DNA of 31,647 nucleotides from the IMG/VR virus record IMGVR_UViG_3300025151_006915, positions 1-31,647 of that record; one strand, 5' to 3'. The DNA is from a virus. Shown one piece after another: positions 1,659 through 31,070 of this stretch. A model generated the notes under the pieces. It was not told the origin of the DNA and searched no databases. It worked only from the letters and a program-made list of their open reading frames with translations. Each line of letters starts with the position of its first letter. The first letter of the stretch is position 1. The position numbers were made by a program, and so were the translations under genes.

Positions 1659-8227
<6,569 letters not shown>

Positions 8228-8593: not shown

Positions 8594-8608
8594 AGTGTTC
8601 CTTTCTAA

Positions 8609-8616: not shown

Positions 8617-8625
8617 GGTTGTTTT

Positions 8626-8631
8626 TATAAT
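8626..8631 (+). promoter_or_regulatory. Possible -10 box (TATAAT) for the plus-strand gene
   Basis: A perfect TATAAT on the plus strand ends 18 bases before the ATG at 8650. I see no good -35 hexamer at the right spacing. It is the only candidate promoter for the single plus-strand gene and sits back to back with the late box of the Fe-S carrier. Confidence 0.35.
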
Positions 8632-8649
8632 CTTAATGTAAATATAGTT

Positions 8650-9987: not shown

Positions 9988-9991
9988 ACTG

Positions 9992-9999
9992 TATTTATG
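9992..9999 (-). promoter_or_regulatory. Late-promoter-like box CATAAATA
   Basis: The minus strand reads CATAAATA, one base from the T4 late box, and it includes the TAA stop of uvsE. It is only four bases from the next ATG, so any transcript would be leaderless or nearly so. It may be chance. Confidence 0.3.
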
Positions 10000-11125
10000 C
10001 CGCCATTTCTTTGGACTCTTCAGTTATACTAAAAAGTTGTCCACTGGCCAAGTTCTTCATCTTTGCTTCGACCATAATGTCTGCCCATTCCCAATGAGAC
10101 AAAGCCCACTCGTTGCAAGCATTGTTCCAACAGTAATCTGAATGTGCTCTAAGTTTTTGTTTTTTGTAACCAGCTTCTAAAAGTTTTTCCATATCTGGTC
10201 TAACATCCTGTCTATGTTCATTGAGATAATCTTCACGACAAAGACTATAATGCATAGTAGGACGAACACCACGCCAGCTATCAATAATACGCTTGATCCT
10301 ATCGTCATTTGCTTCTATATACTCCCCTGTGTTTACCCAGTGATGGTGTATGTCTAACACCAATGCACAATGTTTTTCAAGTTCTAGGCTTGCTTCGAGA
10401 CCCCATTTGTTTTCGTCGTTTTCGATAGTAATACAGTTTCGTGCTTCTGGAGACAGTCTTGGAAGGACGTCTTTGATACCTTCTGGACCTCTTCTGCCTG
10501 AGATGTGGATGTTACATTTGAAGTCTTGCCATTCTTGACCAAAACCCATCCACCTCGCGAGATTGATGTGATACTCGAACTCATCTATTGACCTTTCTAC
10601 AATTTCCTCGTTATCGGAGGCGAGCACCGTAAATTGTCCTGGGTGCATCGATAATCTGACATCCAAAAGCCGTGCGGCCTCACCAACCTTTGCATATTCT
10701 CTTTCACAGTATTCAACAACGTCAGGCTTAGACCAAAAATACATCCAGCTAGACTCGGTAGCACAAGGAAGCTGATTGCTACCCAATCGGACCATACGAA
10801 GTTCTCTAGGAAGACTTCCCACATACTCAACCAATCTCCTTGCCGCAGATGCATTGTGTACCATAATATCCCACAACCTTTGTTCTGCAACATCCTTTGT
10901 TTGTCTATTTAGCCACGCAACTGTAGTACATTTTTCTGTTAGAGGACGCTGTATTTCTTCAAGTATTTTAGGTTTTTGATTTTGATTTGGATGCAGATAT
11001 TTGCAAGCAAAGCCAATACGTTTTTTTGTACTTTGACTATCTAAAAAATCTGCACAACTAGTAAATATCAAGTCATTGTCTGTCATACTTTTATAATACT
11101 TAACTTTAGGAATAGTGTCAATCAA
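9995..11125 (-). CDS. uvsE: UV damage endonuclease UvsE/UVDE
   Basis: The 376-residue protein matches the UvsE family, TIM-barrel endonucleases that nick DNA 5' to UV photoproducts and start excision repair without a glycosylase. Visible family segments include RIGFACKYL near the N-terminus, RLSMHPGQFTVLAS, NIHISGRRGPEGI, the metal-binding ITIENDENKWG, LDIHHHWV and AHSDYCWN, which together supply the His, Glu and Asp metal ligands. Marine phages of the sunlit ocean often carry this gene. It overlaps the upstream 115-residue gene by eight bases and belongs to the transcription unit of the promoter at 11763-11791, which suggests early expression. Confidence 0.95.
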   Translation of the reverse strand: MIDTIPKVKYYKSMTDNDLIFTSCADFLDSQSTKKRIGFACKYLHPNQNQKPKILEEIQRPLTEKCTTVAWLNRQTKDVAEQRLWDIMVHNASAARRLVEYVGSLPRELRMVRLGSNQLPCATESSWMYFWSKPDVVEYCEREYAKVGEAARLLDVRLSMHPGQFTVLASDNEEIVERSIDEFEYHINLARWMGFGQEWQDFKCNIHISGRRGPEGIKDVLPRLSPEARNCITIENDENKWGLEASLELEKHCALVLDIHHHWVNTGEYIEANDDRIKRIIDSWRGVRPTMHYSLCREDYLNEHRQDVRPDMEKLLEAGYKKQKLRAHSDYCWNNACNEWALSHWEWADIMVEAKMKNLASGQLFSITEESKEMAA

Positions 11126-11465
11126 TTTTTATGTTCTTTCTTAATGTTCCTGCCTTGGTAAAATATGTTTCACGCAAACTTGCCAATGCACCTTCTACAA
11201 TTGTAGGATATTTTCCTAAAAATGTTCCTGCTTCTAAGTCACCTTTAGTGATAAATTCTTTATGCCTATGCTCAATTTTATCCCAACAGGCTAACATTGT
11301 CTTGCCCATATCATCAAAAAATCCATCAGTAAAGATAGCATCATCTTGTTTATAGTAAGCAAATGATGCCATAAGGTAATATGGCACCATCATATTAATA
11401 TTCTTTTCGAATATTTTTGCAGCTATTGTATCTAACATTATTCTATATTGTTCTCTCGCTTCCAT
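11118..11465 (-). CDS. Hypothetical protein (115 aa), T4-like marine phage type
   Basis: I do not recognise this protein. It is mostly helical by composition, begins MEAREQYRIMLDTIAAKIFEK, is rich in aromatic residues (VPYYLMASFAYYKQDD), and ends with a basic tail. No signal peptide, Cys cluster or nucleotide-binding motif is present. It overlaps the membrane-protein gene upstream by 28 bases and uvsE downstream by eight, so it is co-translated with both. Early expression is inferred from the promoter ahead of the membrane-protein gene. Confidence 0.7.
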   Translation of the reverse strand: MEAREQYRIMLDTIAAKIFEKNINMMVPYYLMASFAYYKQDDAIFTDGFFDDMGKTMLACWDKIEHRHKEFITKGDLEAGTFLGKYPTIVEGALASLRETYFTKAGTLRKNIKID

Positions 11466-11689
11466 ACTCTATGTTTAGCTTCGCTCCAAACAATCACTGC
11501 AATAGAAAAAACTACCATAGGAATGACAATTGTCAATCCGCCATATAGTTCCGCTTCTAATGGCCTGACTCCATACCACATATATAGATGTGATAAAGCA
11601 AACACAGATGCGTAGACCGCAGCTAAAAATGCAATCCACTTGGTTATGATTTTTGTTGCTTCAAAAGCAATTTTAGTATTTTTACTCAT
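11438..11689 (-). CDS. Small two-pass membrane protein (83 aa)
   Basis: The protein has two hydrophobic segments, at about residues 17-37 (WIAFLAAVYASVFAL) and 52-68 (LTIVIPMVVFSIAVIVW), with a basic C-terminal tail (EAKHRVWKRENN). An inner-membrane protein with both ends in the cytoplasm is the simplest topology. The ATG follows AAGGAACC at good spacing. It is the first gene after the promoter at 11763-11791, with a leader of about 65 bases that holds a six-base-pair AT stem (TAATAC/GTATTA). Function unknown; early phage membrane proteins can alter host entry or metabolism, but nothing in the sequence shows this. Confidence 0.75.
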   Translation of the reverse strand: MSKNTKIAFEATKIITKWIAFLAAVYASVFALSHLYMWYGVRPLEAELYGGLTIVIPMVVFSIAVIVWSEAKHRVWKRENNIE

Positions 11690-11762
11690 TTTAGGTTCCT
11701 TTCATATGTTGAGTAAGGTAGTCCTCCCTAATACTGCTCCTGTATTACTGCCTCGTATATTA

Positions 11763-11791
11763 CTTATATACTATATATAGTGTCCTGTCAA
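11763..11791 (-). promoter_or_regulatory. Sigma70-type promoter, TTGACA-17-TATAAG
   Basis: The -35 TTGACA is at 11791-11786 and the -10 TATAAG at 11768-11763, with an exact 17-base spacer. The -35 includes the TGA stop of the metallophosphoesterase. It would drive the membrane protein, the 115-residue protein, uvsE and the genes down to 8899. Confidence 0.8.
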
Positions 11792-12312
11792 CCAATTAAT
11801 GCGTCAAGGTTGACAGGAGTATAGTTTGTTTGTTCTACGCAAACACATTTATATGGACCTTTAGGTGACGGATTGCTGTGTATATGCCCGTGTACATTTA
11901 ACAAAGGTCCATTACCAAATCTATGTGATTCGGCAAGTGTACTTTCGTGTTGCGGAGTATGGCTTAACAATAATCCTAAGTCACTAAAATCTTTCCAAAA
12001 CAATATTTGTTTGAAAAATGGACTCATAAATCCTGGATTATCGTGATTACCTAACACAAGATATTTCTTGCCAGGCAATTTGGTAAAGTTGTCTTCCATC
12101 CAAGATACTTTATCGTGGCCAAAAAGAACATCACCTAAATGATATATTGTATCTTCTGGCTTTACTGTTTGACTCCACATATCCATCATATGTTCATCCA
12201 TATGATTCACATTGTCAAACCCTTCTCTAGGCGGTTTTCCTGCATAGTCCTTAAACGTAAGAATTGCTTCGTGCCTAAAGTGTGTATCACTTATAACCCA
12301 AGTATTTGCCAT
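11788..12312 (-). CDS. Calcineurin-like metallophosphoesterase (174 aa)
   Basis: All parts of the metallophosphoesterase metal site are visible: D9 and H11 (ISDTH), D61 (HLGDV), N89 and H90 (LGNHD), H118 (LLSHTP), and H141 and H143 (VHGHIH). The length fits the small YfcE/phage type. The enzyme would cleave a phosphate ester with two metal ions in the cytoplasm; the substrate is not shown by sequence. It has its own promoter just upstream and an AGAGGC ribosome site. The C-terminal Gly codon and stop (GGT TGA) form part of the next promoter. The family assignment is secure. Confidence 0.92.
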   Translation of the reverse strand: MANTWVISDTHFRHEAILTFKDYAGKPPREGFDNVNHMDEHMMDMWSQTVKPEDTIYHLGDVLFGHDKVSWMEDNFTKLPGKKYLVLGNHDNPGFMSPFFKQILFWKDFSDLGLLLSHTPQHESTLAESHRFGNGPLLNVHGHIHSNPSPKGPYKCVCVEQTNYTPVNLDALIG

Positions 12313-12339
12313 TTTTTGCCTCTTTGTGCCTACAAATAC

Positions 12340-12367
12340 ATAATAGCATCTATTATTGGTTTGTCAA
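12340..12367 (-). promoter_or_regulatory. Sigma70-type promoter, TTGACA-16-TATTAT, with palindrome
   Basis: The -35 TTGACA (12367-12362) contains the TGA stop of the glycosyltransferase gene. The -10 TATTAT is at 12345-12340. A perfect inverted repeat ATAATAG-ATG-CTATTAT (12340-12356) overlaps the -10 and could be an operator. It would drive the metallophosphoesterase. Confidence 0.7.
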
Positions 12368-13056
12368 CCCCAATGTTGTTTTACCCAAGCATCGTTTGCA
12401 TCAGCAGGGTTAGGCTCACCGTGAAATACTGCAACACTACAGTCAGGTTTGATTTGAGGAGGAGCATCTACTATAAAATTACGTTTTCCTTTATAAACTT
12501 GTAAGTCACGCCTGTCCCGCATTTCCCATTTGTAACTTTGTATCCAGTCATCTGGCCAGTAAACGAAGTTTTTTATATTCTTATACATCCAATCTTGATC
12601 GCCGCGATTACGTTGCATATGCTCTCTAGGACTATGTTTGAACTGGTCGTATATATTTGCAAACATACCCTTTTGTAATCTAAAAACACTGCTATTGACT
12701 CTATCAAAATCTTTTCGTATGCTCCTGTTGAAATCTCTAATTATACAAAATCTTTCTTTTTTGTAATCAAATAATTTATCAATATTGTTAAAAATAATAA
12801 CATCAAGATCAAAATAAAGTATTGTTCCTTCTAATGGAATATCATTGCTAAAGAAGTATGTTTTATGCCACCACCCATCTAGGTTTATATCGGGTAATGG
12901 CATTGTTTTGATTTCTTTATCTATGCCTTTTCTGTTTTCTGTAAAGCAAATAAATTCGTGTGGCACTGTGCAATGCCGTTTAGTCATAGCAAATAGTTTA
13001 TTAACATAATCTGAGGAATATTTTTGTCCCCATTTCAAGCACACAATATAATTCAA
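12364..13056 (-). CDS. Glycosyltransferase, GT8-like (230 aa)
   Basis: The protein has a GT-A fold pattern: MNYIVCLKWGQKYS at the start, the DxD metal motif in YFDLDVIIF (D83, D85), NSSVF near 121, GDQDW at 152-156 and a C-terminal VFHGEPNP (H212) expected near the donor phosphate. This matches the glycogenin/LPS-type GT8-like family common in marine phages. It would transfer a sugar from a nucleotide sugar. The start is TTG at 13056, overlapping the upstream TGA as TTGA; the next Met is residue 24, which would remove the first beta-strand, so TTG is preferred. It is the last gene of the queD-kinase-nucleotidyltransferase unit. The acceptor is unknown. Confidence 0.82.
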   Translation of the reverse strand: MNYIVCLKWGQKYSSDYVNKLFAMTKRHCTVPHEFICFTENRKGIDKEIKTMPLPDINLDGWWHKTYFFSNDIPLEGTILYFDLDVIIFNNIDKLFDYKKERFCIIRDFNRSIRKDFDRVNSSVFRLQKGMFANIYDQFKHSPREHMQRNRGDQDWMYKNIKNFVYWPDDWIQSYKWEMRDRRDLQVYKGKRNFIVDAPPQIKPDCSVAVFHGEPNPADANDAWVKQHWG

Positions 13057-13466
13057 ATCTCAAGCTCACCTGTATCACGCATTGTTTGTCTAATTTTTGT
13101 TGCACTTATATTGTGTATTTCTTCGCCTAAATCGTGTTCGGTAAAAGTATATCCTACACCTCTACCATAACTTATATCTACAATATTAGGAACTAACCTA
13201 ATAACATACTTTTCGCCATACTTGAATCCATTCAATTCAAGCACCTTTTTAATATTGGCAATAACATCAGAAGCTTTGAAAGGATTATCATCTTGCACCA
13301 TAGTTCTACCACCGCTTGCATCTTCCTTTTGTGGAACAGTTCTTACCATAATGATAACTTGTCCTGTTTCTGCCAATGCACGTTTAAACAGCTCTGTGTG
13401 TCCTTTATGCCAAGGTTGCCATCTACCAAGTAGTTGTGTTGTTGGTTTGAAGTCGTTAAACACCAT
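13053..13466 (-). CDS. HxGH nucleotidyltransferase (cytidylyl/adenylyltransferase-like, 137 aa)
   Basis: The nucleotidyltransferase signature HxGH is at residues 20-23 (GRWQPWHKGHTELF) and the second signature ISATKIR at 120-126, as in NMN adenylyltransferases, PPAT and glycerol-phosphate cytidylyltransferases. Such enzymes join a nucleotide to a phosphorylated substrate with release of pyrophosphate. GRxQPxHxGH is typical of the NadR/NadM type, so an NMN adenylyltransferase is one possibility. The gene overlaps the upstream P-loop kinase by 11 bases, and the pair recalls the two halves of NadR or a split sulfate-activation module. The ATG at 13466 begins MVFNDFKPT. Substrate unproved. Confidence 0.82.
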   Translation of the reverse strand: MVFNDFKPTTQLLGRWQPWHKGHTELFKRALAETGQVIIMVRTVPQKEDASGGRTMVQDDNPFKASDVIANIKKVLELNGFKYGEKYVIRLVPNIVDISYGRGVGYTFTEHDLGEEIHNISATKIRQTMRDTGELEI

Positions 13467-13881
13467 TTCTTTCCATCCATATTTTTATTACTTGCATAAG
13501 TTGTTCGTGTGTGTCGCTAAACCATTCGCTCACGTGATAATCGCACATATACGGAGGCTCAAAAACTTTATTTGTATCTTCATATGTGCTTTCTTTGATT
13601 GTATCCATAAAAACGGTAAAGTCAGCATCAAAATCATATCTTGCTTTTTCAGTAGGACAAACAAAATCTGCAATAGCAATTTTACCTGCCAGCTCTACAC
13701 CTTCAGCAAGATATTTCATACGCAACGCTTGGCGTGTTCGTCCTTCTTTGCTAAAGTCCCAATCGTTATACTTCGTTCGTACTTGATCAGCATTTATATG
13801 AACACCATTGATTAACTCTGCAAATGGTTTTGCTAATGTAGTTTTTCCACTTCCAGGTAATCCAAATATTAGTATTTTCAT
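13456..13881 (-). CDS. P-loop kinase, adenylylsulfate-kinase-like (141 aa)
   Basis: A Walker A motif GLPGSGKTT is at residues 7-15, followed by HINADQVRTKYNDWDFSKEGR, which fits the APS kinase (CysC) arrangement of DxDxxR and the Arg-rich lid. The protein is shorter than typical CysC (about 200 residues) and its C-terminal part (CDYHVSEWFSD) is divergent. It would transfer a phosphate from ATP to a small molecule; APS is the family precedent but is not certain. It overlaps queD by four bases (ATGA) and the nucleotidyltransferase by 11, so these three proteins are probably made together. Confidence 0.8.
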   Translation of the reverse strand: MKILIFGLPGSGKTTLAKPFAELINGVHINADQVRTKYNDWDFSKEGRTRQALRMKYLAEGVELAGKIAIADFVCPTEKARYDFDADFTVFMDTIKESTYEDTNKVFEPPYMCDYHVSEWFSDTHEQLMQVIKIWMERNGV

Positions 13882-14357
13882 TCGTTTGCAATAAACATCT
13901 TCTTAGTGTTAAAGTAAGGTGTATATATAGCACTGTTAGCACCGTGTTCTGCACACTCTACTTCTACACAACCACAACGACCGTCTGTCATTTCACTAAC
14001 AAGTTTGTTTGCAAAATTCCAAGCGTGATATGCAAATTTTTCAACACCTACACCATCTAGCACAGTTAATTCTGCAAGTCCTTTGGATGCAAGTAATTCA
14101 AATGTTTCCATTTCTGGATCATCTTTGTCTAATACAACTTTGTGATCAAATGTATCTTCTAACCAAGCCTTTAGCGGTTTAAGACCACCAAAATCAACTA
14201 CCCAGTTTCTTTCATCTAATTCACGTGCTTCAAATGTAAATTTGAATTGTAAACTATAACCGTGTAAAAATTTGCAATGTGAATGTGCCTTAGGTTGTCT
14301 AAAGCAGGCACTTAATCCAATGTTGTGCCCGTATGTTTTTGTTGAATAATAATTCAT
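13878..14357 (-). CDS. queD: QueD-like 6-carboxytetrahydropterin synthase / PTPS family
   Basis: The 159-residue protein has the family layout: catalytic Cys region SHCKFLHGYSLQ (C28, H32), VVDFGGLK at 53-60, FDHKVVLD (H72) and a C-terminal VEVECAEHGANSA holding the pterin-binding Glu. In QueD this enzyme turns dihydroneopterin triphosphate into 6-carboxytetrahydropterin, on the way to preQ0 and queuosine or 7-deazaguanine DNA. Two of the three usual zinc ligands look changed: the first His (FxAAH) is F19 and the second His of HGH is Y34, while nearby H25 and H27 could compensate. Other marine phage homologues, as I recall, share the HGY form. No QueC, QueE or DpdA gene is in the window. It is first in its operon. 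Confidence 0.85.
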   Translation of the reverse strand: MNYYSTKTYGHNIGLSACFRQPKAHSHCKFLHGYSLQFKFTFEARELDERNWVVDFGGLKPLKAWLEDTFDHKVVLDKDDPEMETFELLASKGLAELTVLDGVGVEKFAYHAWNFANKLVSEMTDGRCGCVEVECAEHGANSAIYTPYFNTKKMFIANE

Positions 14358-15981: not shown

Positions 15982-16155
15982 CTAGTTAAAGTCGGCTGGA
16001 CGGAGCTCTACTGCTTCTTCTAACTCCGCATACATAGTATAGATGTGTTTTACTAAGTCACGCTTGACACTATCTTGCAGTGGCATACTCATTACTAGTT
16101 CGTCTACTTCGTCAAGTTTACTATCAATTGCTTCTAGTGTTTCTTGTACAGACAT
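15982..16155 (-). CDS. Small acidic hypothetical protein (57 aa)
   Basis: The frame runs from ATG at 16155 to TAG at 15982 and encodes MSVQETLEAIDSKLDEVDEL, a middle helix (SVKRDLVKHIYTMYAELEEA), and the end ELRPADFN. It is acidic and almost wholly helical, with heptads that suggest a dimer. A strong ribosome site (GAGGAG, seven bases before the ATG) and its position straight after a promoter support it. The context is like that of small early phage proteins that bind host enzymes, but no target can be named. Confidence 0.75.
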   Translation of the reverse strand: MSVQETLEAIDSKLDEVDELVMSMPLQDSVKRDLVKHIYTMYAELEEAVELRPADFN

Positions 16156-16179: not shown

Positions 16180-16208
16180 GTTATAACATAGGAATTAATA
16201 ATAGTCAA
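16180..16208 (-). promoter_or_regulatory. Sigma70-type promoter, TTGACT-17-TATAAC
   Basis: The -35 TTGACT (16208-16203) lies in the last codons (LDYY) of the SGNH-like gene. The -10 TATAAC is at 16185-16180 with a 17-base spacer. It drives the 57-residue and Lys-rich proteins. Confidence 0.65.
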
Positions 16209-16917
16209 GCTCTTTACACTTATTATCTATAAAATCTTTCCAAGCAATGTGTGCATCTAGTTTTAAATGCCAACATTCTGTTTTTTCAAATCCTCTTGCT
16301 AATGCCCAGTTAAGGAAAGATTTTCCAAATGACATCGGTTCTATGTATTTTTGTTTATCTAATTTTTCTAAAATTGCTTGATTATTCTGTGTTTTTTGTA
16401 ATTCTTGACAAGTATTGAACATCAAATACTTTACTTTTTGCCGGTCTAATATTCTTTGTAAATGCCAAGCATAGGTTGCCCACATATCAAATTCTTTAGT
16501 TTCTTCTAATATAATAGGAGTAATGCTGTGTATCCTTTTAAATTCTTTTGATGATGCAATTTCTGGCTCTTGACCAATGCTCAATGGAAAATACTTAGGA
16601 TCACTTTTTGCCATAGTAGGATGATAGTATTCGCTATCTTCAGCATATCTTAGTTCTGTTCTCAGTAAAGACGTCCAACCTATCAAAACTATATAATCTT
16701 CGTCTTTCTTTTTCATTCTAGTTAGCCAGTCAATAGTATTACGCCAAATATATTCGTTACTACCTCCAGGCATTGCTAGGTTTTGTATTTTAAAATTGTT
16801 TTTCTTTGCTAACAATGCCGCATAATTATTATTTAAATTAAACAAGCTAGACGATTGTTTACCATCCAACATTGTGCCATATGTATGGCTACAACCTATT
16901 GCTACAATAGAAGTCAT
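16195..16917 (-). CDS. SGNH/GDSL-hydrolase-like protein (240 aa)
   Basis: Block I is AIGCSHTYG with S10 as candidate nucleophile, PGGSNEYIW at 50-58 fits the Gly/Asn blocks, LIGWTSLLR at 78-86 is a family-typical strand, and LDAHIAW near residue 220 gives the Asp and His (DxH). It is the last gene of the radical SAM operon and overlaps its degenerate neighbour by four bases (ATGA). An esterase, or an acyl transferase acting on a sugar or on the product of the radical SAM enzymes, is plausible; the substrate is unknown. It is a paralogue of the protein at 8899-9585. Confidence 0.72.
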   Translation of the reverse strand: MTSIVAIGCSHTYGTMLDGKQSSSLFNLNNNYAALLAKKNNFKIQNLAMPGGSNEYIWRNTIDWLTRMKKKDEDYIVLIGWTSLLRTELRYAEDSEYYHPTMAKSDPKYFPLSIGQEPEIASSKEFKRIHSITPIILEETKEFDMWATYAWHLQRILDRQKVKYLMFNTCQELQKTQNNQAILEKLDKQKYIEPMSFGKSFLNWALARGFEKTECWHLKLDAHIAWKDFIDNKCKELDYY

Positions 16918-17534
16918 TTTTCTATCCTTTCAGATAATAACTTAGCAATAAGTTTTTGTCCGTCAACAGTATCAAAATTTTGTTTTAATTTTTTTACATA
17001 TTTTCTTATATTAGCTTTAGGATTTTCAACACCTATATATTTGGTTCTATCTATATTTTTTATCATATACAGTGTGTACGAATTCCATTCTATAGAAGTT
17101 TCTATATTATACATAAGATAATTTATATCTAAACTTTTTAGAAACTCTTGTAAACTATATACAATCGAACACCACCTTATATTTGTAAGATATTCATCTG
17201 TAAGTATATGTTCAAATCTAATTAATCGTTGAAATTCTATTTCTAAATTTTTTTGTCTTTTATGGAAAGTAAAATAATTTTTATCAATAAATCCATCTAC
17301 AGGAAATTTTTTATATATTCTTCTAAGTTCTACACTATGAACATTATTCCAACCAATTACTGGAAAAATATTTTCATTTTGTGAAATATATTTTGTAACT
17401 AAACGGAAAACACTTTGAGGTCCAGAAGTGCTTGTAGTCATATCTTGGAATTCGTATCCTAATTTATTAGCTAGGTGATAAGGTGCATTCTTTCCGCCTA
17501 CTAAGTTTTTGTCACCAAAAGCAACTAGGCGCAT
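16914..17534 (-). CDS. Degenerate SGNH-like protein lacking the catalytic Ser (206 aa)
   Basis: The start is set at ATG 17534 (MRLVAFGDKNLVGG): it overlaps the upstream TAA as TAATG and has GGAGG ten bases before it, whereas a TTG 21 bases earlier has no ribosome site. The fold resembles its neighbour (strand MRLVAFG, then VIGWNNVHS like LIGWTS), but block I reads GDKN where GxSxT is expected, and no C-terminal DxH is found. It is probably a binding or partner protein rather than an esterase. Co-translated with the radical SAM gene upstream and the SGNH-like gene downstream. Confidence 0.65.
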   Translation of the reverse strand: MRLVAFGDKNLVGGKNAPYHLANKLGYEFQDMTTSTSGPQSVFRLVTKYISQNENIFPVIGWNNVHSVELRRIYKKFPVDGFIDKNYFTFHKRQKNLEIEFQRLIRFEHILTDEYLTNIRWCSIVYSLQEFLKSLDINYLMYNIETSIEWNSYTLYMIKNIDRTKYIGVENPKANIRKYVKKLKQNFDTVDGQKLIAKLLSERIEK

Positions 17535-18859
17535 TACATATATTCCTCCATCCAAGGTATGTAATCTAATATGTTTACATTTCTAAATTTATCACTTGCT
17601 TTTGTGTTGTTGATATATTTTTGCCAGTCACCTTCATTTGGTTGTTCATTAAGTTGATTCTTTAATCCTAAAATTGCATCTACAGCCCATTGTTCCCATT
17701 CAGGTAGTCCTGCATTTTGGAATTTTTTATGTTGTTTCTCTAGCATTTCATTCATAAGTTTTTTACGTTCGTTTGGTAAGTTTCTTATATGTAGATTTCT
17801 TGGATACTCAACTATGTTAAAATGCGGCAAGCAATTTTGGTATCCGTGATTACCCCAATCCCAGGTATAGTGCCAAGTATCATAATTTTCTTTACACCAA
17901 TCTAAAACATTAGGCAAATCGTGTAAGTTCATAACGCTTAGTGTAACGTGTGTATGAACAATAACTCCTGTGCGTGTTTTGCTAAACTCTTTTAACTTTT
18001 CTATATTACGTTTAATTATTTTCCATTTACTAGGAAATCTAACATAGTATGCTAAATCATCTGTAGCATCGATGCTCAAACTTAGTACAACACCTCTAAA
18101 CTTATCCCAAATATCCAACAACCTATCTGGTATAGTTGTGCCATTTGTATTGTAATGTAATTCAATATTTTGGCTCCATCCTTTATCTATGATATGCTCT
18201 AACCAAGCATAGTGTTCATTTACTACTAAAGGTTCTCCACCAATAAAATTTATTATTTTTACGTTTGGTAAAACATCATCAAAAAAGTTTTCTTCAAATG
18301 CTTTAATAAACCAAGGATCTGTACTGCTTAATTTTCCAATTTTATAAGCAGTTTCATCCCAATCAGTGTGTGGTACAGTAGGACCTTCTTCAATCCACCT
18401 ATGACTTGCCCAAGGATTACAACTACGACATTTTAAATTACAAACATTGCCTAAACTAATATCTAAATATGTAATTGCTTGTGGATCTAAAAAGCCATCT
18501 TCACTTACGTGCTTCAAACTCTTATCTATATGTTCTTCGTATATTTCATTTGAAGTTTGCCTAAAACTACGTATGCCATCTTTTTCTAATTTAAAACATT
18601 CAGCACAGCCCGGCGGTTGTTCACCTTTGAGTAATCCTTCTCTAATTTTCATTATTTCTGGATCGTTTATAAATTCGCTTAAATTTTGAGCGGCATTTAC
18701 TTTATCGTTATATTCTGGTGTATCTTGGAAGTTTATACCAGGCATAAACTTTCTTGTCTCTTGTCTACTAAAACAGCAAGGTCTGCTACGTCCGTGAGGA
18801 TGTGTGCTAAAACTTTGCATTGCGTGGTAGCAAAATGTATCAGGCGATGAGGTGGACAT
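17534..18859 (-). CDS. Radical SAM protein with N-terminal twitch-like domain (441 aa)
   Basis: The CX3CX2C cluster motif is CNLKCRSC (C140, C144, C147), which binds the 4Fe-4S cluster that cleaves S-adenosylmethionine. FIGGEPL is the SAM-contacting GGE motif. Before the core lies a Cys set (C10, C28-C29, C85, C88) like a SPASM/twitch half placed N-terminally, the pattern of the N_twitch_rSAM family; it probably binds an auxiliary cluster. Substrate unknown. It overlaps the upstream radical SAM gene by 20 bases and the downstream gene by one. It is the last of six radical SAM genes in the operon. Confidence 0.9.
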   Translation of the reverse strand: MSTSSPDTFCYHAMQSFSTHPHGRSRPCCFSRQETRKFMPGINFQDTPEYNDKVNAAQNLSEFINDPEIMKIREGLLKGEQPPGCAECFKLEKDGIRSFRQTSNEIYEEHIDKSLKHVSEDGFLDPQAITYLDISLGNVCNLKCRSCNPWASHRWIEEGPTVPHTDWDETAYKIGKLSSTDPWFIKAFEENFFDDVLPNVKIINFIGGEPLVVNEHYAWLEHIIDKGWSQNIELHYNTNGTTIPDRLLDIWDKFRGVVLSLSIDATDDLAYYVRFPSKWKIIKRNIEKLKEFSKTRTGVIVHTHVTLSVMNLHDLPNVLDWCKENYDTWHYTWDWGNHGYQNCLPHFNIVEYPRNLHIRNLPNERKKLMNEMLEKQHKKFQNAGLPEWEQWAVDAILGLKNQLNEQPNEGDWQKYINNTKASDKFRNVNILDYIPWMEEYM

Positions 18860-19832
18860 TTTCTGGACTCGCTTTGCTTATATTAAAATCTGCCGCACAA
18901 TGACAATGTGTTTTTGGACAAATAATACCTTCACTTAATTTGATATCAAATTCTCCTTGTACTATATTACCAACAATTGGACCTACACCACAGCTGGCTT
19001 GTTGTATGCGACCGTTAGGATGTATATGTAAACTTTCGTGTATATTACAAGTCCATCCTTTAAAAAAGTTTTTACGTTCAGTGATTATTAAATTTGTATC
19101 TATTGCTTCAATTGTATCATCTTCATAATGCACTTTTGCCCAAGCGTAATTTGGTTCTTTATGTATAGGAATGACTTGTTGTCTTGCACTACTGTTTTTC
19201 TTGAAGAAATCCATTTGCCACTGTTCTTTATAAAAATATGGATCTGTGCTAGGTCTTAATTCATCATACACAGGTGCATATTCTATCATATAATTATCAC
19301 AAGTATCTTTAATTTTGTCGCCAAAATCAATACATTGTTGAAAATGCTCGTGATGCATCATTATTCTTGAACACAAATAATTTTTCTTATCTTGTAAAAA
19401 TTTGTAGCATTTTAAATATTTTTCTTCTTTTGTCCATTCTGCGTGATAACTTGCAACAACATCTTCAAATAAATGATGATGTTCTTCCCACCATTTTACC
19501 GAACGACTGAAATTTGTATTAATACCTACACAACTACCTGGCCATTCTGCTATTTCTCTAAACTTTTCTACAACAGGAATAAGTCCTGCCCACATTGTTG
19601 GTTCGCCACCGCTTAGATATAATTTAAAATATTTGTATCCTTTATCTTTGTAATGCAACATTATGCGTTCTAGGGTAGATACAATTAAGTTTATATCATC
19701 CTCGTTTTTATTTCTACCTGCCCAATTCCATTCACTACAGTATGTACACCTGAAATTACACCAGTCATTAACTTGCCAAACTAAACTTACCCATTTATCC
19801 TTTGCAGGAATAATTGCTTTTATGTTTTGCAT
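18840..19832 (-). CDS. Radical SAM protein with C-terminal SPASM/twitch-like Cys cluster (330 aa)
   Basis: The core motif is CNFRCTYC (C25, C29, C32) close to the N-terminus, with LSGGEPTMW as the GGE motif. Unlike its neighbours it has no N-terminal Cys set. Instead the C-terminus has GWTCNIHE, QASCGVG, then CPKTHCHCAAD, which looks like an auxiliary cluster domain. That domain type is common in enzymes that modify peptides or carry out sugar or alcohol oxidations. It overlaps the radical SAM genes on both sides, by 20 and 13 bases. Substrate unknown. Confidence 0.9.
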   Translation of the reverse strand: MQNIKAIIPAKDKWVSLVWQVNDWCNFRCTYCSEWNWAGRNKNEDDINLIVSTLERIMLHYKDKGYKYFKLYLSGGEPTMWAGLIPVVEKFREIAEWPGSCVGINTNFSRSVKWWEEHHHLFEDVVASYHAEWTKEEKYLKCYKFLQDKKNYLCSRIMMHHEHFQQCIDFGDKIKDTCDNYMIEYAPVYDELRPSTDPYFYKEQWQMDFFKKNSSARQQVIPIHKEPNYAWAKVHYEDDTIEAIDTNLIITERKNFFKGWTCNIHESLHIHPNGRIQQASCGVGPIVGNIVQGEFDIKLSEGIICPKTHCHCAADFNISKASPENVHLIA

Positions 19833-21028
19833 ACATCTTCCAATATATAATTCAATGTAGGAAATATATCAGCAAACTTGTGTTTTCTATATTTGTCATT
19901 GATTGAAATAAATTGTTTCATACGATTTATATTTTCTGCAGAATATTTATTAGTGTTCTGTGTGTAGTTAATGATTCTTTGAACAGGATCTTTATGCATA
20001 GTTGTTTCAAGTGTAAACAACTTGCCTATAACTTTGTGTTGTATTTCTCTTGGCCAAACGCAACTGTGTAATTGATCAGGATGTTCTAAGAAAATAGGAA
20101 CAAAGTCTACACGTCTAGTCTGACGTGACTCTAACCAACGTATAAGTCTATCTATATCAAATACATTCCACGCTTGATATACAAAATAAATTTTTAGTTG
20201 TACTTTTTCTGGCAATGTCATTGCTTTTGAAAAGTTTTCTTCTACTTTGTTCCAATCTGTAGGATAACGTATGTACATATTGTGATCGCCATAACCATCA
20301 ATACTCATCTGAACTTCACTGCTATCAAAGAAATCTAATTTACTGTAAAATCCTTCAGGCCAAGTTGTCATATTTGTTGTCCAAGCCACGTGACATTTTG
20401 TATTTCCTGCTTCAACTAACTTATCCAATACGTATTGATTTGCTTGAATTAAAGTAGGTTCACCGCCTGTCATATACAAACGTTCTAAAGTTGGTGCTAC
20501 TTGGTCTACAAAGTCTCGAAATTCTTGTGTTTCATACCATTGCCAATCGTGTGCTTCTACACTTTTGATTTCGTGGTTCCATTGGTCGCTTAACCATTGC
20601 GGAAGTTTTTCATTGGCAACAATTTTTTTACGTTCTTTGTAAATGTTATCACTGCTAACACTCCAACAACTGTTGCATTTTAAGTTGCAGTGGTTGCCAA
20701 GCCTTAGTTCCAGGTGAGTAGGATTGCTATGCAGTAATGGTTGTTTATAATTTTCATTTGCCCATTGCCTACTACTTTGTAAACCTTTTTCTTCGTGCTC
20801 ATAACAACGACTGCATTCTTTTACAGGTTTGCCAGCAAGCATATTAGAACGTACATCTAACATATATTTGCTATTCCAAATGTTGTGCCAATCGGTTTTA
20901 CCTAATACAGCATCTTTGCCATCTAACTGAATATAATCTTCCCCATATACGTGACAGCAAAGTTTACATCTACCATCTGTATTTGTATGAACATTTATAA
21001 ATGGATACACACAATATGTATCAGACAT
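19820..21028 (-). CDS. Radical SAM protein with N-terminal twitch-like domain (402 aa)
   Basis: The start is chosen at ATG 21028 (MSDTYCVYPFINVH), which has AAGGAAA upstream and matches the short N-termini of its paralogues; an ATG 27 bases earlier has a poorer fit. The core motif is CNLKCNSC (C114, C118, C121) and MTGGEPTL is the GGE motif. The N-terminal Cys set is C6, C21, C24-C25, C72 and C75, in the twitch-like order. It overlaps the B12-type radical SAM gene by eight bases and the next gene by 13. Substrate unknown; likely acts in series with the other five. Confidence 0.88.
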   Translation of the reverse strand: MSDTYCVYPFINVHTNTDGRCKLCCHVYGEDYIQLDGKDAVLGKTDWHNIWNSKYMLDVRSNMLAGKPVKECSRCYEHEEKGLQSSRQWANENYKQPLLHSNPTHLELRLGNHCNLKCNSCWSVSSDNIYKERKKIVANEKLPQWLSDQWNHEIKSVEAHDWQWYETQEFRDFVDQVAPTLERLYMTGGEPTLIQANQYVLDKLVEAGNTKCHVAWTTNMTTWPEGFYSKLDFFDSSEVQMSIDGYGDHNMYIRYPTDWNKVEENFSKAMTLPEKVQLKIYFVYQAWNVFDIDRLIRWLESRQTRRVDFVPIFLEHPDQLHSCVWPREIQHKVIGKLFTLETTMHKDPVQRIINYTQNTNKYSAENINRMKQFISINDKYRKHKFADIFPTLNYILEDVCKT

Positions 21029-23177
21029 CCCATTTTCCTTTTCCTTGCCAATCATACTTAAAACTTAAATCTGTATCTCTAAATCTATAAAATTCTCTTT
21101 GATGCTGTTTGAATATAGCACTATCAAATGCATTGTAAGGATCTTTTCCTTTTTTGTTTTCATCGCCTTTCCACGCAAGTTTTCTAGCTCTTATTACAGC
21201 ATTACCATTATCTCGTGTAAAATCCATAATTGCCCATATGGGACTCCAAGGATCAACACTCATTCTTTCTTTACCATCTTCAATCCAATATTTGTCATCC
21301 CAGTTTTTATGTATATCTTGTTTGTAATCCCACCAAAAATCTGCTGTCCAGTTTCCTTGATCGTCAATAGTGAAATCATACTCTGCATCTAATGGAGCGG
21401 CATTCCTGTTTCCCCATTCCTCATACTCCCAATCTTTTCTAAACTTAAGATTTAATTTATATCCGCCTTTGGTTCTCCATAATATTCTTAAAAATGGCCA
21501 AATTTCATTTACTAAGCTATCAGCAAAGTTTCCTAAATTTGGTTTTATAATATTATAATCAAAATTGTCGTAATTGTAAACTAAATCATTTAATCTATCA
21601 GGATCATTAAATTCTATTTTATAATGCTTTTGTCGTAAACTATGCCTAGTTGGTAAACTACAAATTTTATCTGTTTGCAAGAAGTCAGTAAAAATACTAA
21701 AACTTTTCATCTTAATTAGTTTATGGACAATACTTGCTTTCAAGTCTTTTGTAATCCAATGATCATAATAGTAAAAAGGCATCAAATTAAATTTGTCAAA
21801 GTTTTGTCCAACAATAGTATCTACACCTACACTGAATCCTGTTCCTTGACTTACAGCAATCAATCCTTGATTACGTATACGCCATAAAAATGTAAGTGTA
21901 TCTTCAAGCTCTTTTGGTCCTTCGTTAGGAAAACCTACAATCCAGTTTGTCATTGCATCAACGCCCGCGGCAAATCCATCACGAAAGTTTGCTTCCATTT
22001 CTTCCACAGTTACTTTTTTGTCCATTGCGTCTAAAACAACTTGACTACCTGATTCAATACCATAATTTAGCACTTCGCAACCACCTGCTTTTAAGTCTTT
22101 ATAGTATTCTGCATCCATACGTCCATCACATCTAGCATATCCGGTCCAGTGTATATCTAAACCTTTTTCAGCAACACCTTTGACAAACCCACGTAGCTCG
22201 TTTAGATTTCCATTTACAAGACTGTCAATAAACCAAAATACATTTGTTCCGTGTTCATAGTACATATGTTCTATTTCGTTAAGTGTGCTAAACGCATTTC
22301 TTTGTCTATACTTCCAAAAATGTGTTTCTTCACAGAACGTGCATTTTGCAATACAACCTCTTGATATTTCGCACAATGCACCGTTAGGAAACTTATATTT
22401 GCTAAAATCAAAATCACTATAATCAGGTAATGGTAGTGTGCTTAAATTGTAGCGTTGATTCTCTGGCTGTCTAACAATTTTACTTACAGCATCTTCGTTG
22501 TATTCTATTTGTTTTTCATTTTCAATACTTGCAAGCATCAACAATAAAGGTTGTTCTCCTTCACCGTTTACTACATAGTCATAAATTTCTTCACCTTTAT
22601 AGTAACTTGCGTGTGTAGCAGGTCCGCCAACAATAATTTTGACGTTTGGCATACGCTTTTTAATCTCTGTTGCCATCCATTTACAAGGTTCTTCGTTACA
22701 ATAATACAAACTAAACCCTACAACATCTGGTTGAAACTTTTCCATTTCTTCAATGTACTCAAGCAATATAGGTTCTAAGTGTTTGTGTATGTCTTTATAG
22801 TACTCATCTTTGTACCAATGCCAATCACGTAAAGGATTCCAAGGATCAAAAGGTATGTCCCATTTCTCTTTTAAAAATCTACTGTAAGATTCCACGTTAA
22901 TATCAAAACTTTTACACGCATATCCTGCACGTTTGATAGCACTTGCTAACTTTGCAACATTATAAGGCGGAAAACTTGGATCCCATTCTGGTAACAAACA
23001 CAAACATATTTTAGTTTTTCTATTTACGTCATACTCAATAGTAAGTTCTTGCAAACCTTTTTGTACAGGTTTACTGTATTGCTGTATAACCTGCATTGTA
23101 GCAACGTGTTTATCTTCACTAAATGTAGGTTTGTCTGGCTTCTCTCTATCCGGATCTTTGTACTCAAAAAATCCCAT
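21021..23177 (-). CDS. B12-binding-type radical SAM protein (718 aa)
   Basis: Residues about 55-215 form a Rossmann-like B12-binding-type domain (LPEWDPSFPPYNVAKLASAI, then QPDVVGFSLY and IIVGGPATHA), without the DxHxxG motif, as is usual in this class. The radical SAM motif is RGCIAKCTFC (C275, C279, C282), followed by YGIESGSQ typical of the group. Known members methylate unactivated carbons, cyclise or contract rings using cobalamin and SAM. A C-terminal region of some 230 residues, rich in Trp and Asp (WTADFWWDYKQD), is unusual. Its ATG overlaps the upstream stop as TAATG. Substrate unknown. Confidence 0.9.
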   Translation of the reverse strand: MGFFEYKDPDREKPDKPTFSEDKHVATMQVIQQYSKPVQKGLQELTIEYDVNRKTKICLCLLPEWDPSFPPYNVAKLASAIKRAGYACKSFDINVESYSRFLKEKWDIPFDPWNPLRDWHWYKDEYYKDIHKHLEPILLEYIEEMEKFQPDVVGFSLYYCNEEPCKWMATEIKKRMPNVKIIVGGPATHASYYKGEEIYDYVVNGEGEQPLLLMLASIENEKQIEYNEDAVSKIVRQPENQRYNLSTLPLPDYSDFDFSKYKFPNGALCEISRGCIAKCTFCEETHFWKYRQRNAFSTLNEIEHMYYEHGTNVFWFIDSLVNGNLNELRGFVKGVAEKGLDIHWTGYARCDGRMDAEYYKDLKAGGCEVLNYGIESGSQVVLDAMDKKVTVEEMEANFRDGFAAGVDAMTNWIVGFPNEGPKELEDTLTFLWRIRNQGLIAVSQGTGFSVGVDTIVGQNFDKFNLMPFYYYDHWITKDLKASIVHKLIKMKSFSIFTDFLQTDKICSLPTRHSLRQKHYKIEFNDPDRLNDLVYNYDNFDYNIIKPNLGNFADSLVNEIWPFLRILWRTKGGYKLNLKFRKDWEYEEWGNRNAAPLDAEYDFTIDDQGNWTADFWWDYKQDIHKNWDDKYWIEDGKERMSVDPWSPIWAIMDFTRDNGNAVIRARKLAWKGDENKKGKDPYNAFDSAIFKQHQREFYRFRDTDLSFKYDWQGKGKWDV

Positions 23178-24385
23178 TATGCAATGCCTTCTAGTTCAGG
23201 AAATACCTCAAACACATCTTCTTGTCTAAGTTTATCTACTTTAAATGTTTTGTATAAAAACATTTTGACTTCTTCGGATCTATCATCATTAATAAAATTC
23301 AAAATACTTTCATAATCTTTTTTTACGTGATTTATATTATTAAATTGATCAAGATATTTTAAGTGTTCTAAATATCTTAATCTAATTTTATCCTTTTTCT
23401 TAACTGGTAAAATACTTAACCGCATATAAGTTGGATCTAATAATATATTAATCCTTATATTTGCAGGTTCTAGTAATCCTTGTTCAATCCATTCTTTATG
23501 AAAATCTGGTAGATTTAACACGTTATAAACGCTTACAGTGGGGGTCAATTCAAAATAAACTTGTGGACACTGCTCTAGCATATCTCGCCTATTTTGCACT
23601 ACAATATCCCAATCCATATTTTTACGTAGATATTCACCACGTTTATGGTTTGCATCTAAACTTGCCGCAACTCTTACTTTATCAAATGCATTCCAATATT
23701 CAAAAGCTGTTTTCTTTTTGAATCTCATTTGCGTAAAGTTAGTGGTGTAGTCCATTGCTACATCACGCTTGCCCATTGCAATCCATTTATCAAGTATATC
23801 ATAATGTGCTTGTGTTATCAAAGGTTCGCCGCCAGCCCAATATACACGTTCAACACTCTCTAGTAATGGCTCAAGTTCATCCATAAAACTCTTCATTTCA
23901 TCACGTACTTGCAATATTTTAGGATGATTTAATTCTCCATACATTTGTTTGTGATCTTCAAACCAACTACTGCTAAACTGTGGACCACAACTACGACATT
24001 TTAAATTACATAAATTACTAAAACGAATATCCATATAGGCCATATTTACATCACCAGCACTACCATCATCGCTTGTGTTCATAACTTTTTGCCAGTGTTT
24101 ATCTGCGAAATTAGTAATACTGCTGTTGCGTAATGTTTGCATTCCGTTGTCTTCAAGCTCATAACAACGTCTACATTCTTTGCTTGGCTCACCTGATAAC
24201 ATATTCAAACGTATCTTACGCATTTGCTCACCGTTCCATATGTCTTGTAAACTTTGTGTTTGTGTATTACCAATTGGATAGTCAGGATCACTCATACAGC
24301 AAGGATATGTAAATCCAGCAGGCCACAGATGCATATGTACCCAAGGCATCATACAAAAGTGTTTGTTATCTTTTACACTAGACAT
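23177..24385 (-). CDS. Radical SAM protein with N-terminal twitch-like domain (402 aa)
   Basis: The core motif is CNLKCRSC (C126, C130, C133) with YWAGGEPLI as the GGE motif. The N-terminal Cys set is C11, C29-C30, C71 and C74 (FCMMPWVH, TYPCC, CRRC). It is closely similar to the preceding gene at 24378-25586 over the whole length (FSNLCNxKCRSCGPxFSS, NVLNLPDF versus NVVDLRHI), so the two are recent paralogues, perhaps a heterodimer or two steps on related substrates. It overlaps its neighbours by one and eight bases. Confidence 0.9.
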   Translation of the reverse strand: MSSVKDNKHFCMMPWVHMHLWPAGFTYPCCMSDPDYPIGNTQTQSLQDIWNGEQMRKIRLNMLSGEPSKECRRCYELEDNGMQTLRNSSITNFADKHWQKVMNTSDDGSAGDVNMAYMDIRFSNLCNLKCRSCGPQFSSSWFEDHKQMYGELNHPKILQVRDEMKSFMDELEPLLESVERVYWAGGEPLITQAHYDILDKWIAMGKRDVAMDYTTNFTQMRFKKKTAFEYWNAFDKVRVAASLDANHKRGEYLRKNMDWDIVVQNRRDMLEQCPQVYFELTPTVSVYNVLNLPDFHKEWIEQGLLEPANIRINILLDPTYMRLSILPVKKKDKIRLRYLEHLKYLDQFNNINHVKKDYESILNFINDDRSEEVKMFLYKTFKVDKLRQEDVFEVFPELEGIA

Positions 24386-25586
24386 ATAAATCCTTTAGTT
24401 CTGGAAAAACTTTTAAAAAGTTTTCGCCACGCTTCAAATCCATTTTTTGCATTTGTACTCTAAATTCAGGTATTAAATGTGTATCGTCACTATTATACAT
24501 AAAGTTTACAATGTTGTCGAGTCCATTATTCAAAAATTCTTTGCGTTGGGGATACATTTTTCTTTCATCAATATCTTGCTTTAGTAATTCAATATTTTCT
24601 TTGGCTTTTGCTTTTATGTGTTCAGGCAATATTGTACAACTCATCCATTCTGGACCAACCAACAAATTACTGAGATTTATGTCGTAATCAGTAGGAATGT
24701 CGTGTTCAAAAAGATAATTTACAATGTGACGCAGGTCAACAACATTCAAAGCACTGATAGTTGGATTAGGTTGTATAACTACACCTTTGTCGTAACTGTG
24801 TTCAAAATTATCACGTATCCAACACAAGTTTGTAAACACTGTATCCCAAGTTTGTCCTGCTCGTGTATACTCTGCTTTCTTGCCTACTTGATCCAAACTC
24901 ACACAATAGAATATACGATCAAAATGTTGCCAATAATCTTTTATGTGTTTGCCTTTTAGGCTTAGGCGTGTGGCGTTGCTGTTGTATGTCAGTCTCGGTT
25001 TGAGTCCACGCTCTATGAGCATATCTAGCAATCTATAATGCTGTGGCATAAACAAACTTTCGCCGCCTGTAAAATAAACTTCTTCTATAGTTGGTAATAC
25101 TTCTTCAATTTCTTCCCACATATCTTGATGATTGATTTCTACAATTTCTGGCTTGCCTATCAAATCCTCTGACCACTTACTACTAAAATGAGGTCCACAA
25201 CTTCTGCATTTCATATTACACAAGTTACTAAATCTAATGTCAAAATATGCCAAGTTCATTTGTTCTACTGTGCCATCTTCTTGAGTAGTTTTAACTAAAT
25301 CGTAATGATGATTGTATTCAGTGTTAAACTTGTGTCTATAACTTATTATACCTTGCTTGTCATAGTTGGTGCATTTAGCACAACCTTCGCTTGGTTCATT
25401 GGCCAGCATACGTAAACGAAGTTTACGCATCTTTTCACTGTTCCACGCACCTTTAAGTCCACTACGATTTATATTATCAACCGGCATATCCCAATGGTAT
25501 ATACAACAAGGATATGCATCACCTGTCTGCCAAACACTCATATGTGTCCAAGGAGCCATACAAAAGTTTTCTTTGAATTCAGACAT
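24378..25586 (-). CDS. Radical SAM protein with N-terminal twitch-like domain (402 aa)
   Basis: The core motif is CNMKCRSC (C123, C127, C130) and YFTGGESLF is the GGE motif (GGES rather than GGEP). The N-terminal twitch-like set is C9, C27-C28, C69 and C72 (FCMAPWTH, YPCC, GCAKC). Both this protein and its paralogue end in a similar segment (ENFLKVFPELKDL and EDVFEVFPELEGI). It is the first radical SAM gene of the operon, with GAGG before the ATG and only one base after the stop of the putative glycosyltransferase gene. Confidence 0.9.
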   Translation of the reverse strand: MSEFKENFCMAPWTHMSVWQTGDAYPCCIYHWDMPVDNINRSGLKGAWNSEKMRKLRLRMLANEPSEGCAKCTNYDKQGIISYRHKFNTEYNHHYDLVKTTQEDGTVEQMNLAYFDIRFSNLCNMKCRSCGPHFSSKWSEDLIGKPEIVEINHQDMWEEIEEVLPTIEEVYFTGGESLFMPQHYRLLDMLIERGLKPRLTYNSNATRLSLKGKHIKDYWQHFDRIFYCVSLDQVGKKAEYTRAGQTWDTVFTNLCWIRDNFEHSYDKGVVIQPNPTISALNVVDLRHIVNYLFEHDIPTDYDINLSNLLVGPEWMSCTILPEHIKAKAKENIELLKQDIDERKMYPQRKEFLNNGLDNIVNFMYNSDDTHLIPEFRVQMQKMDLKRGENFLKVFPELKDLYV

Positions 25587-25587
25587 A

Positions 25588-26748
25588 TTACCTCGTTGCT
25601 TTTAGCACTTGTTTTTCTATGTCCAACCAGCTAATACGTCTGTTGTAAAAGTTGTCATAGTTATAGTATAATTTATCAATAAAATCTTGTGTGAATTTAT
25701 TTTTATAAACTTTAATATCAGTGTATTTTATTTTACTTATAAATGAACTTGCTTCATCAAAACTTTCTACTTTTTTAGTATCAAAAAAATCCTCAAAAGT
25801 ATAATAGCCATTATGACGCAACCTAGAATGATGATCAGGATTGCCAATTATAAAAAACGGATGACAGTGAACAATTGCTTTAAATGTTTTTTCTGTCAGA
25901 AAAGCAAATCTAAAACTACTTTCTGTAACAATACTGAAAAGACTATCATTATAGTAATTCAAAATACTATTATTGTAGTTAATAGGATTTATATCCAATT
26001 TATCTAAAACTTTGCCTTCGTATGTTTTGTTTAAAAACTGTTGATATTCTTGATGCAATGAACTTGGTATATATTTTAAAACAAAGTCACTACGTGCCAT
26101 TTGATTGTATATTTCAATATCTAGCAACGGTAGATGATAACTTATGTGAGATTGTTCTTTCATTTTCAATCTCCATAGATTGAAATAAAACCATATCCTG
26201 TGAGCTTTTTGATTTCTATTTAAACACAAAAACTTTTTTGAAGCCGCAAGATTAATTGATCTTCTATCAGTTGCACCAGGCAAAAATTTTTGGTGATATC
26301 TAGTAAAACTTTCCCAATAATCTATATAGATAAATTTTAATCCATAACTGTTGTTTAGATGTGTGAAACAACTTGTCATTATTAAAACTTTTTGTTTGTT
26401 TATACGTTGCCTTTGAAGTTGCTTGATAATTAGTTTGTAATCAATTTCTCCTTCTAATAGTGTAACTATAATTAAAAATGTATCTTTATCTTGATTAATT
26501 TTATCAATAGTTTTTTTATGTAAACGTATTCTATAGGTTACTGGCATTTGGATTGATAACATAATAAATTTTTTATCAACGTCAATATTATCAATTCTAT
26601 CTAAATTGTAAAAATTTCTAAATGAAAAGTCATCAAAATGCCCAAATGCATTCTCTACACTGAATCCTTGATCAAGTGTATCAGTTCCTAGTGATATATG
26701 TCCGAAAGGATAGGCTAATGTGTTAGCCAAAAAGAAGCCATATGTCAT
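25588..26748 (-). CDS. Putative glycosyltransferase, exostosin/fucosyltransferase-like C-terminus (386 aa)
   Basis: The C-terminal third has the pattern SSFRFAFLTEKTFKAIV, then PFFIIGNPDHHSRLRHNGY and TFEDFFD. The TEKTFKAI segment recalls the donor-binding motif of exostosin and GT10 fucosyltransferases (EKxxxxAI). The N-terminal half is poorly conserved and unrecognised. It would transfer a sugar in the cytoplasm; donor and acceptor are unknown. It is the first gene after the promoter at 26754-26782 and heads the radical SAM operon, which suggests that the operon makes or decorates a glycan. The predicted transcript start falls on the ATG, so the message may be leaderless. Confidence 0.5.
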   Translation of the reverse strand: MTYGFFLANTLAYPFGHISLGTDTLDQGFSVENAFGHFDDFSFRNFYNLDRIDNIDVDKKFIMLSIQMPVTYRIRLHKKTIDKINQDKDTFLIIVTLLEGEIDYKLIIKQLQRQRINKQKVLIMTSCFTHLNNSYGLKFIYIDYWESFTRYHQKFLPGATDRRSINLAASKKFLCLNRNQKAHRIWFYFNLWRLKMKEQSHISYHLPLLDIEIYNQMARSDFVLKYIPSSLHQEYQQFLNKTYEGKVLDKLDINPINYNNSILNYYNDSLFSIVTESSFRFAFLTEKTFKAIVHCHPFFIIGNPDHHSRLRHNGYYTFEDFFDTKKVESFDEASSFISKIKYTDIKVYKNKFTQDFIDKLYYNYDNFYNRRISWLDIEKQVLKATR

Positions 26749-31062: not shown

Positions 31063-31070
31063 TATTTATA
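31063..31070 (-). promoter_or_regulatory. Perfect T4 late promoter box TATAAATA
   Basis: TATAAATA on the minus strand lies between the tRNA cluster and the 79-residue gene, five bases before its ATG. In T4 the start site is about six bases after the box, which here would fall on the ATG. Confidence 0.75.

Follow-up and report, generated by a model that had tools for sequence, protein, structure and literature searches.

A phage operon with six radical SAM genes as a candidate pathway for making and attaching an unusual sugar

What would a phage do with six radical S-adenosylmethionine (SAM) enzymes encoded in a row? The question is raised by IMG/VR virus record IMGVR_UViG_3300025151_006915, of which positions 1 to 31,647, a 31.6-kb virus contig, form the stretch of DNA analysed here (hereafter the window). 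Nine genes, which we call A to I, run along its minus strand from 26748 down to 16195. A sequence-only reading of this run by a model had considered so many radical SAM genes exceptional for a phage, which is overstated given published precedents. As far as the available text of the corresponding papers goes, the T4-like Campylobacter phages CP220 and CPt10 (Firehammervirus) have 11–12 radical SAM genes and an exchangeable cluster of five such genes with an amidinotransferase (PMC2853527), the marine T4-like genome TARA_ERS488813_N000010 has 12 together with an A-type Fe-S carrier (PMC5332604), and pelagimyophages carry radical SAM cassettes in their host-recognition region, among tail and glycosyltransferase genes, for which the authors favour a change of the O-chain (PMC7029224). 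Phages with many radical SAM genes have thus been on record since 2010 without an explanation, and no pathway for them is proposed in the portions of these three sources available to us. With moderate confidence, we read the operon as a pathway by which the phage, during infection, builds an unusual sugar, probably an amino- or guanidino-decorated one, and transfers it to an acceptor. The nine genes and two related features are as follows.

Gene A, 25588–26748, minus strand: glycosyltransferase-like protein of 386 amino acids (aa), GT-B fold in an AlphaFold2 model and fold comparison
Gene B, 24378–25586, minus strand: N-terminal-twitch radical SAM enzyme (NF033640, 363 bits)
Gene C, 23177–24385, minus strand: N-terminal-twitch radical SAM enzyme (NF033640, 401 bits)
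Gene D, 21021–23177, minus strand: cobalamin-binding radical SAM enzyme, probable C-methylase, optional (PF04055, PF02310, Foldseek)
Gene E, 19820–21055, minus strand: N-terminal-twitch radical SAM enzyme (NF033640, 305 bits)
Gene F, 18840–19832, minus strand: radical SAM enzyme with a C-terminal Cys cluster (PF04055, 31.5 bits)
Gene G, 17534–18859, minus strand: N-terminal-twitch radical SAM enzyme (NF033640, 322 bits)
Gene H, 16914–17555, minus strand: degenerate SGNH paralogue (alignment with gene I)
Gene I, 16195–16917, minus strand: SGNH-type protein matching DUF6071 (PF19547, 34.5 bits, cut-off 27)
L048:6417–8792 and L049:6417–8792: A-B fusion open reading frame (ORF) on two relatives' contigs of one lineage
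Window 8228–8593, minus strand, outside the operon: A-type Fe-S carrier of the IscA/HesB type (PF01521, 52 bits)

All nine ORFs are present at these coordinates and tightly packed: a gap of 1 nt lies between A and B, and the seven other junctions down to I are overlaps of 1–35 nt. PF04055 is found in all six radical SAM proteins, five of them above the curated Pfam cut-off and C just below it; C is a radical SAM protein nonetheless, as its 401 bits against NF033640 (‘twitch domain-containing radical SAM’) far exceed the curated whole-protein cut-off of 170 bits. The sub-types proposed from the letters alone, namely an N-terminal twitch in B, C, E and G, a B12-binding domain in D and a C-terminal Cys cluster in F, were borne out as well. 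The proposal that the nine genes share one promoter was not: 20 nt separate the start of gene A from the gene before it, which lies on that strand too, and promoter-like matches number 88 against 73.7 ± 8.5 in shuffled sequences, with no clear excess. The late promoter TATAAATA has a single match in the window, at 31063–31070 on the minus strand, which is below chance expectation.

NF033640 covers the whole length of B, C, E and G, with the auxiliary twitch cluster preceding the radical SAM core. The CX3CX2C motif lies at residue 123 in B (twitch Cys 9, 27, 69 and 72), 126 in C (twitch Cys 11, 29, 71 and 74), 123 in E and 140 in G, and at residue 25 in F, in which Cys 25, 29, 32, 262, 281, 305, 310 and 312 are invariant. 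Among relatives of B, C, E and G, all 147 distinct sequences keep CX3CX2C and 143 keep the N-terminal four-Cys twitch pattern, the other four being one fusion, one fragment and two proteins with a longer insert. The twitch part of gene C aligns, Cys on Cys, with the auxiliary domain of BtrN, the butirosin aminocyclitol dehydrogenase (E 4.8e-4). The twitch enzymes share with BtrN a single auxiliary cluster domain in which the Cys align; that domain is C-terminal in BtrN but N-terminal here, and no full-length similarity exists, which places them outside the BtrN family. The A-type Fe-S carrier may possibly supply clusters to these enzymes.

The cluster is a conserved unit rather than an accident of one contig. 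Relatives were collected from viral contigs by exact seeds, and these contigs are metagenomic and mostly partial; redundant ones were merged solely where their D or F sequences were identical. A scan anchored on gene D found 22 close relatives and then 204 in total, of which 80 were retrieved. In all 17 contigs holding the whole stretch, A to G are contiguous, on a single strand and in identical order, and chance clustering is therefore excluded; the more distant relatives L025, L045, L046 and L054 keep the genes with their order changed or interrupted. The sequence-only reading had called a single pathway unlikely should the six proteins fall in families never found together elsewhere, or should relatives lack key Cys. 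The families do co-occur, and every one of 254 distinct relatives of the radical SAM proteins retains CX3CX2C, which leaves the idea of a single pathway standing. Beyond the immediate clade, identity to siblings is 69–88% for the radical SAM enzymes, 34–41% for A and 22–44% for I, and this combination of slow radical SAM enzymes with fast A and I fits a constant building block with varying attachment.

A second scan, anchored on gene F, found 249 relatives in viral contigs and 44 distinct new loci, of which 43 contain twitch radical SAM enzymes, 41 contain two or more, and about 8 contain gene D. SGNH genes occur in 33 of the 44, A-type glycosyltransferases in 28, DegT in 18 and amidinotransferase in 15. 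Among the 64 distinct D loci, an A-type glycosyltransferase lies within about 10 kb in 56 and an SGNH gene in 46. No other gene accompanies the twitch enzymes as constantly as gene F. In two siblings (L130 and L140), gene D is exactly absent, C abuts E and the order is otherwise unchanged, which makes D an optional, removable step; together with the F-anchored loci, this defines the core as the twitch enzymes plus F. A diverged version of the module, in L025 and its kin, has additional twitch enzymes. The idea that gene D is the heart of the module was rejected once the F-anchored scan showed it to be optional.

Gene D scores above the cut-off for both PF04055 (56 bits) and PF02310 (39.5 bits, cut-off 32.1). 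Its model (mean predicted local distance difference test, pLDDT, 78) matches TsrM best in Foldseek (E 7e-13), followed by OxsB, TokK and the aminoglycoside dehydratase AprD4. The protein is a probable C-methylase; methylation is, to our knowledge, not the main reaction of OxsB or AprD4. Scans of 84,980 prokaryote genomes, seeded from two alignments, turned up no relative of gene D, a negative that excludes near relatives only, because the seeds were exact short patterns. The nearest long relative, contig G003 (134 kb), encodes two more B12-type radical SAM proteins (C1:40658–42343 and 73314–74774), both with PhpK-type P-methyltransferases as best match, far below cut-off.

Within the operon, it is gene A that points to sugars. 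Its AlphaFold2 model (pLDDT 85.6) has a GT-B fold, as expected of the glycosyltransferase-like protein proposed earlier, with VIA-align Z scores of up to 12.3 against GT-B enzymes that include T4 BGT, FUT9 and a bacterial alpha-1,3-fucosyltransferase. All 50 matches listed are glycosyltransferases of GT-B fold (Z 10.4–12.3 over 250–308 residues), and 282 chains reach a Z of at least 8. Across 20 homologues H183, R184, E286 and K287 are invariant. The protein is similar to GT10 in its fold and in a conserved TEK-type motif, which by analogy with GT10 would lie close to the predicted nucleotide site. A and B are joined into one ORF of 792 aa (A at residues 16–393, B at 397–791) in two contigs of a single lineage. 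A scan of viral contigs for close relatives with gene A alone found none and missed even known siblings, which means that gene A evolves too fast for the seeds used. Searches of phage records by tblastn with gene A and with gene I, and by megablast with the region, gave no match. A protein of about 180 aa adjoins gene A in several lineages (L045:4091–4630, L048:5858–6421 and L008:1–477); its HRD...H pattern recalls aspartyl/asparaginyl hydroxylases, and it matches no family.

The two SGNH-like genes of the sequence-only reading proved unequal: gene I keeps all three SGNH blocks (GCSHT, GGSN and DAH), and gene H, in alignment with it, has lost the nucleophile Ser and DxH and is merely a degenerate relative. 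A further SGNH-like protein (GCSFT, DGH) is encoded outside the operon at 8899–9585 of the window, and its profile recurs near gene D in many freshwater phages.

Further indications of sugar chemistry come from the genes that stand beside the module in relatives: a StrB1-type amidinotransferase, a DegT aminotransferase, an O-carbamoyltransferase, a nucleotide-sugar epimerase, a cytidylyltransferase-cupin and more glycosyltransferases. Among solved structures, the amidinotransferase is closest to StrB1 (E 3.5e-18), the inosamine-phosphate amidinotransferase of the streptomycin pathway, which it matches over its full length. The family keeps C317, H197, D199 and D80 (L010 numbering), the catalytic set of such enzymes. 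The carbamoyltransferase is closest to the novobiocin enzyme, GdmN and TobZ. DegT is present in a truncated form (DegT9-type) and in full in L025 and its contig G019, which add an epimerase, a sugar C-methyltransferase-type protein, a sulfotransferase and a carbamoyltransferase.

Similar company is kept in other phages. The cultured Vibrio phage K566 has GT8 genes interleaved with N-terminal-twitch radical SAM genes, near a PagP-annotated gene. In Synechococcus phage S-SCSM2R (L105), glycosyltransferases, a truncated DegT (DegT9), a radical SAM enzyme, a 2-oxoglutarate oxygenase and a StrB1-like amidinotransferase lie at 6998–13751, the last scoring 490 bits against the profile built here (StrB1, E 1.2e-60). 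Campylobacter phages CP220 and F379 have radical SAM genes, an amidinotransferase and a nucleotide-sugar transferase, and AG-345-D19, a single-cell marine virus contig, has a twitch radical SAM gene, a carbamoyltransferase, two SGNH-like genes and an amidinotransferase within 8 kb. A tblastn search with the amidinotransferase returned six phage records (two from one CP220 genome and two from one single-cell virus), with radical SAM genes within a few genes in all except one single-cell-virus contig.

On the reading that we favour, the twitch enzymes and F would use radical chemistry to alter a sugar or cyclitol, for example by oxidation or removal of a hydroxyl (deoxygenation) or inversion of a centre (epimerisation); gene D, where present, would add a methyl group; gene A would transfer the activated sugar; and gene I would add or remove an acyl group, with gene H as a possible non-catalytic partner. 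The acceptor could be either a protein of the virion (tail) or a glycan on the host surface. The first would suit the tail-type genes found close to the module in several lineages and the absence of a flippase or polymerase from the operon; the second would suit the PagP-annotated neighbour of the Vibrio cluster and the O-chain change favoured for pelagimyophages. The earlier proposal of glycan synthesis or decoration is supported by the GT-B fold of A, the A-B fusion, the sugar-tailoring partners (including the C-methyltransferase) and the GT8 genes of the Vibrio phage; its corollary, that the host surface is altered, cannot be separated from decoration of the virion.

Several points weigh against this reading. 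That the substrate is a sugar is inferred, as are the individual reactions, the acceptor and what the phage gains. Gene A matches no curated family and has no match by profile among Protein Data Bank (PDB) sequences, the BtrN match is weak and confined to the cluster domain, and the operon itself contains no flippase or polymerase. The amidino, amino and carbamoyl steps are borrowed from relatives, because amidinotransferase, DegT9-type and carbamoyltransferase genes are all lacking in the window and in G003, which may be incomplete. Finally, SPASM/twitch enzymes act more commonly on peptides.

This last point leads to the rival that survives best, although we judge it unlikely: that the radical SAM enzymes modify side chains of phage structural or other proteins by methylation, epimerisation or cross-linking, and that the glycosyltransferase and SGNH proteins finish the product or act alongside. 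Proteins and peptides are the best-known substrates of such enzymes, gene D scores with C-methyltransferases of ribosomally synthesised and post-translationally modified peptides (RiPPs), and several divergent phages have genes with tail2185-type matches at a distance of a few kb from the radical SAM cluster; the recurring partners, however, are sugar-tailoring enzymes, and no conserved precursor peptide accompanies them. In the vicinity of the module there is no intergenic room for a precursor, and the one small ORF left over on the coding strand (57 aa, 15982–16155) has no homologue in any retrieved relative, which weakens the RiPP reading, as the sequence-only reading had anticipated.

Less probable again is that the cassette yields a diffusible small molecule resembling an aminoglycoside or aminocyclitol, with the infected host or competitors as its target. 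The BtrN-like auxiliary domain and the relatives' StrB1-like amidinotransferase, TobZ-like carbamoyltransferase and DegT would suit such a product, but these extra genes are absent from the sequences of the window lineage examined, and the surroundings of the module, where no targeted search was made, showed no recognisable gene for a cyclitol-forming synthase, an exporter or self-resistance.

Very improbable, in our view, is a hypermodified DNA base that gene A would glycosylate as T4 glucosyltransferases do. T4 BGT and AGT are among the nearest folds of gene A, the window has a QueD-type gene, and in sibling G005 a QueC match adjoins a further radical SAM gene. Yet gene F stays far below the cut-offs of the QueE profiles TIGR03365 and TIGR03963 (16.6 and 21.6 bits against 206 and 260), QueC is found in 1 of 11 related records, and no match to the thymidylate synthase/dCMP hydroxymethylase family is found in these 11, all of which may be fragments. 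The QueD-type gene (13878–14357) and the QueC match (G005:C1:56783–57431) suggest that some of these phages also have a distinct route to deazaguanines. That the enzymes form a counter-defence or viperin-like chain-terminator system is barely credible, as the similarity of gene F to prokaryotic viperin (NF038283) amounts to 33.7 bits against a curated cut-off of 180 and similarity of this size is seen in the other radical SAM proteins of the operon too.

Could the sugar pathway, our preferred explanation, be one that aquatic phages share? We put forward only tentatively, and with more doubt than belief, that Campylobacter phages, a cyanophage, a Vibrio phage and huge freshwater phages, unrelated to one another, have independently assembled versions of a modular radical SAM pathway in which enzymes of the aminoglycoside kind (BtrN-like dehydrogenases, StrB1-like amidinotransferase, DegT and TobZ-like carbamoyltransferase) build a sugar of aminocyclitol or guanidino type that ends up on the virion or host surface. 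CP220 is like the module in its many radical SAM, amidinotransferase and nucleotide-diphospho-sugar transferase genes and unlike it, in the stretch examined, in that one radical SAM protein matches (F-like, weakly), the twitch set and gene D are missing and the order differs. TARA_ERS488813_N000010 resembles the window as a marine T4-like genome with many radical SAM genes and an A-type Fe-S carrier, a comparison made with its published description, which in the available text is a count of radical SAM genes with no module, partners or pathway. The pelagimyophage cassettes likewise place radical SAM genes in marine myophages, and the available text of that paper gives no account of their composition or function.

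What is new here is a defined core, its sugar-chemistry partners and its recurrence in unrelated phages. Our literature search found nothing linking virion glycosylation with radical SAM enzymes and, for phage amidinotransferases with radical SAM enzymes, the Campylobacter phage paper as the sole relevant source. The core, the A-B fusion, the optional B12 enzyme and the amidino-, amino- and carbamoyltransferases amount to a testable proposal that viruses make unusual sugars. If true, it would suggest what class of substrates the N-terminal-twitch family is likely to act on and add to the known cases of virus-coded glycosylation, and it points to the culturable phages Vibrio K566 and Synechococcus S-SCSM2R (a good bench system).

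A recurring family of proteins adjoins the module at 50 loci (for example, L025:2572–3567), with a motif like FDFSWxPDPxxPPYIYxWGNQW and some long, repetitive members; it may be another glycosyltransferase-like family. Around the operon, the window encodes tail-type proteins, six tRNAs, a peptidoglycan-binding/SLT lysis-type protein, UvdE and, as noted above, the QueD-type protein and the A-type Fe-S carrier. These flanks fit a T4-like marine phage, and in G003 the ribonucleotide reductase is about 70% identical to cyanomyophage enzymes.

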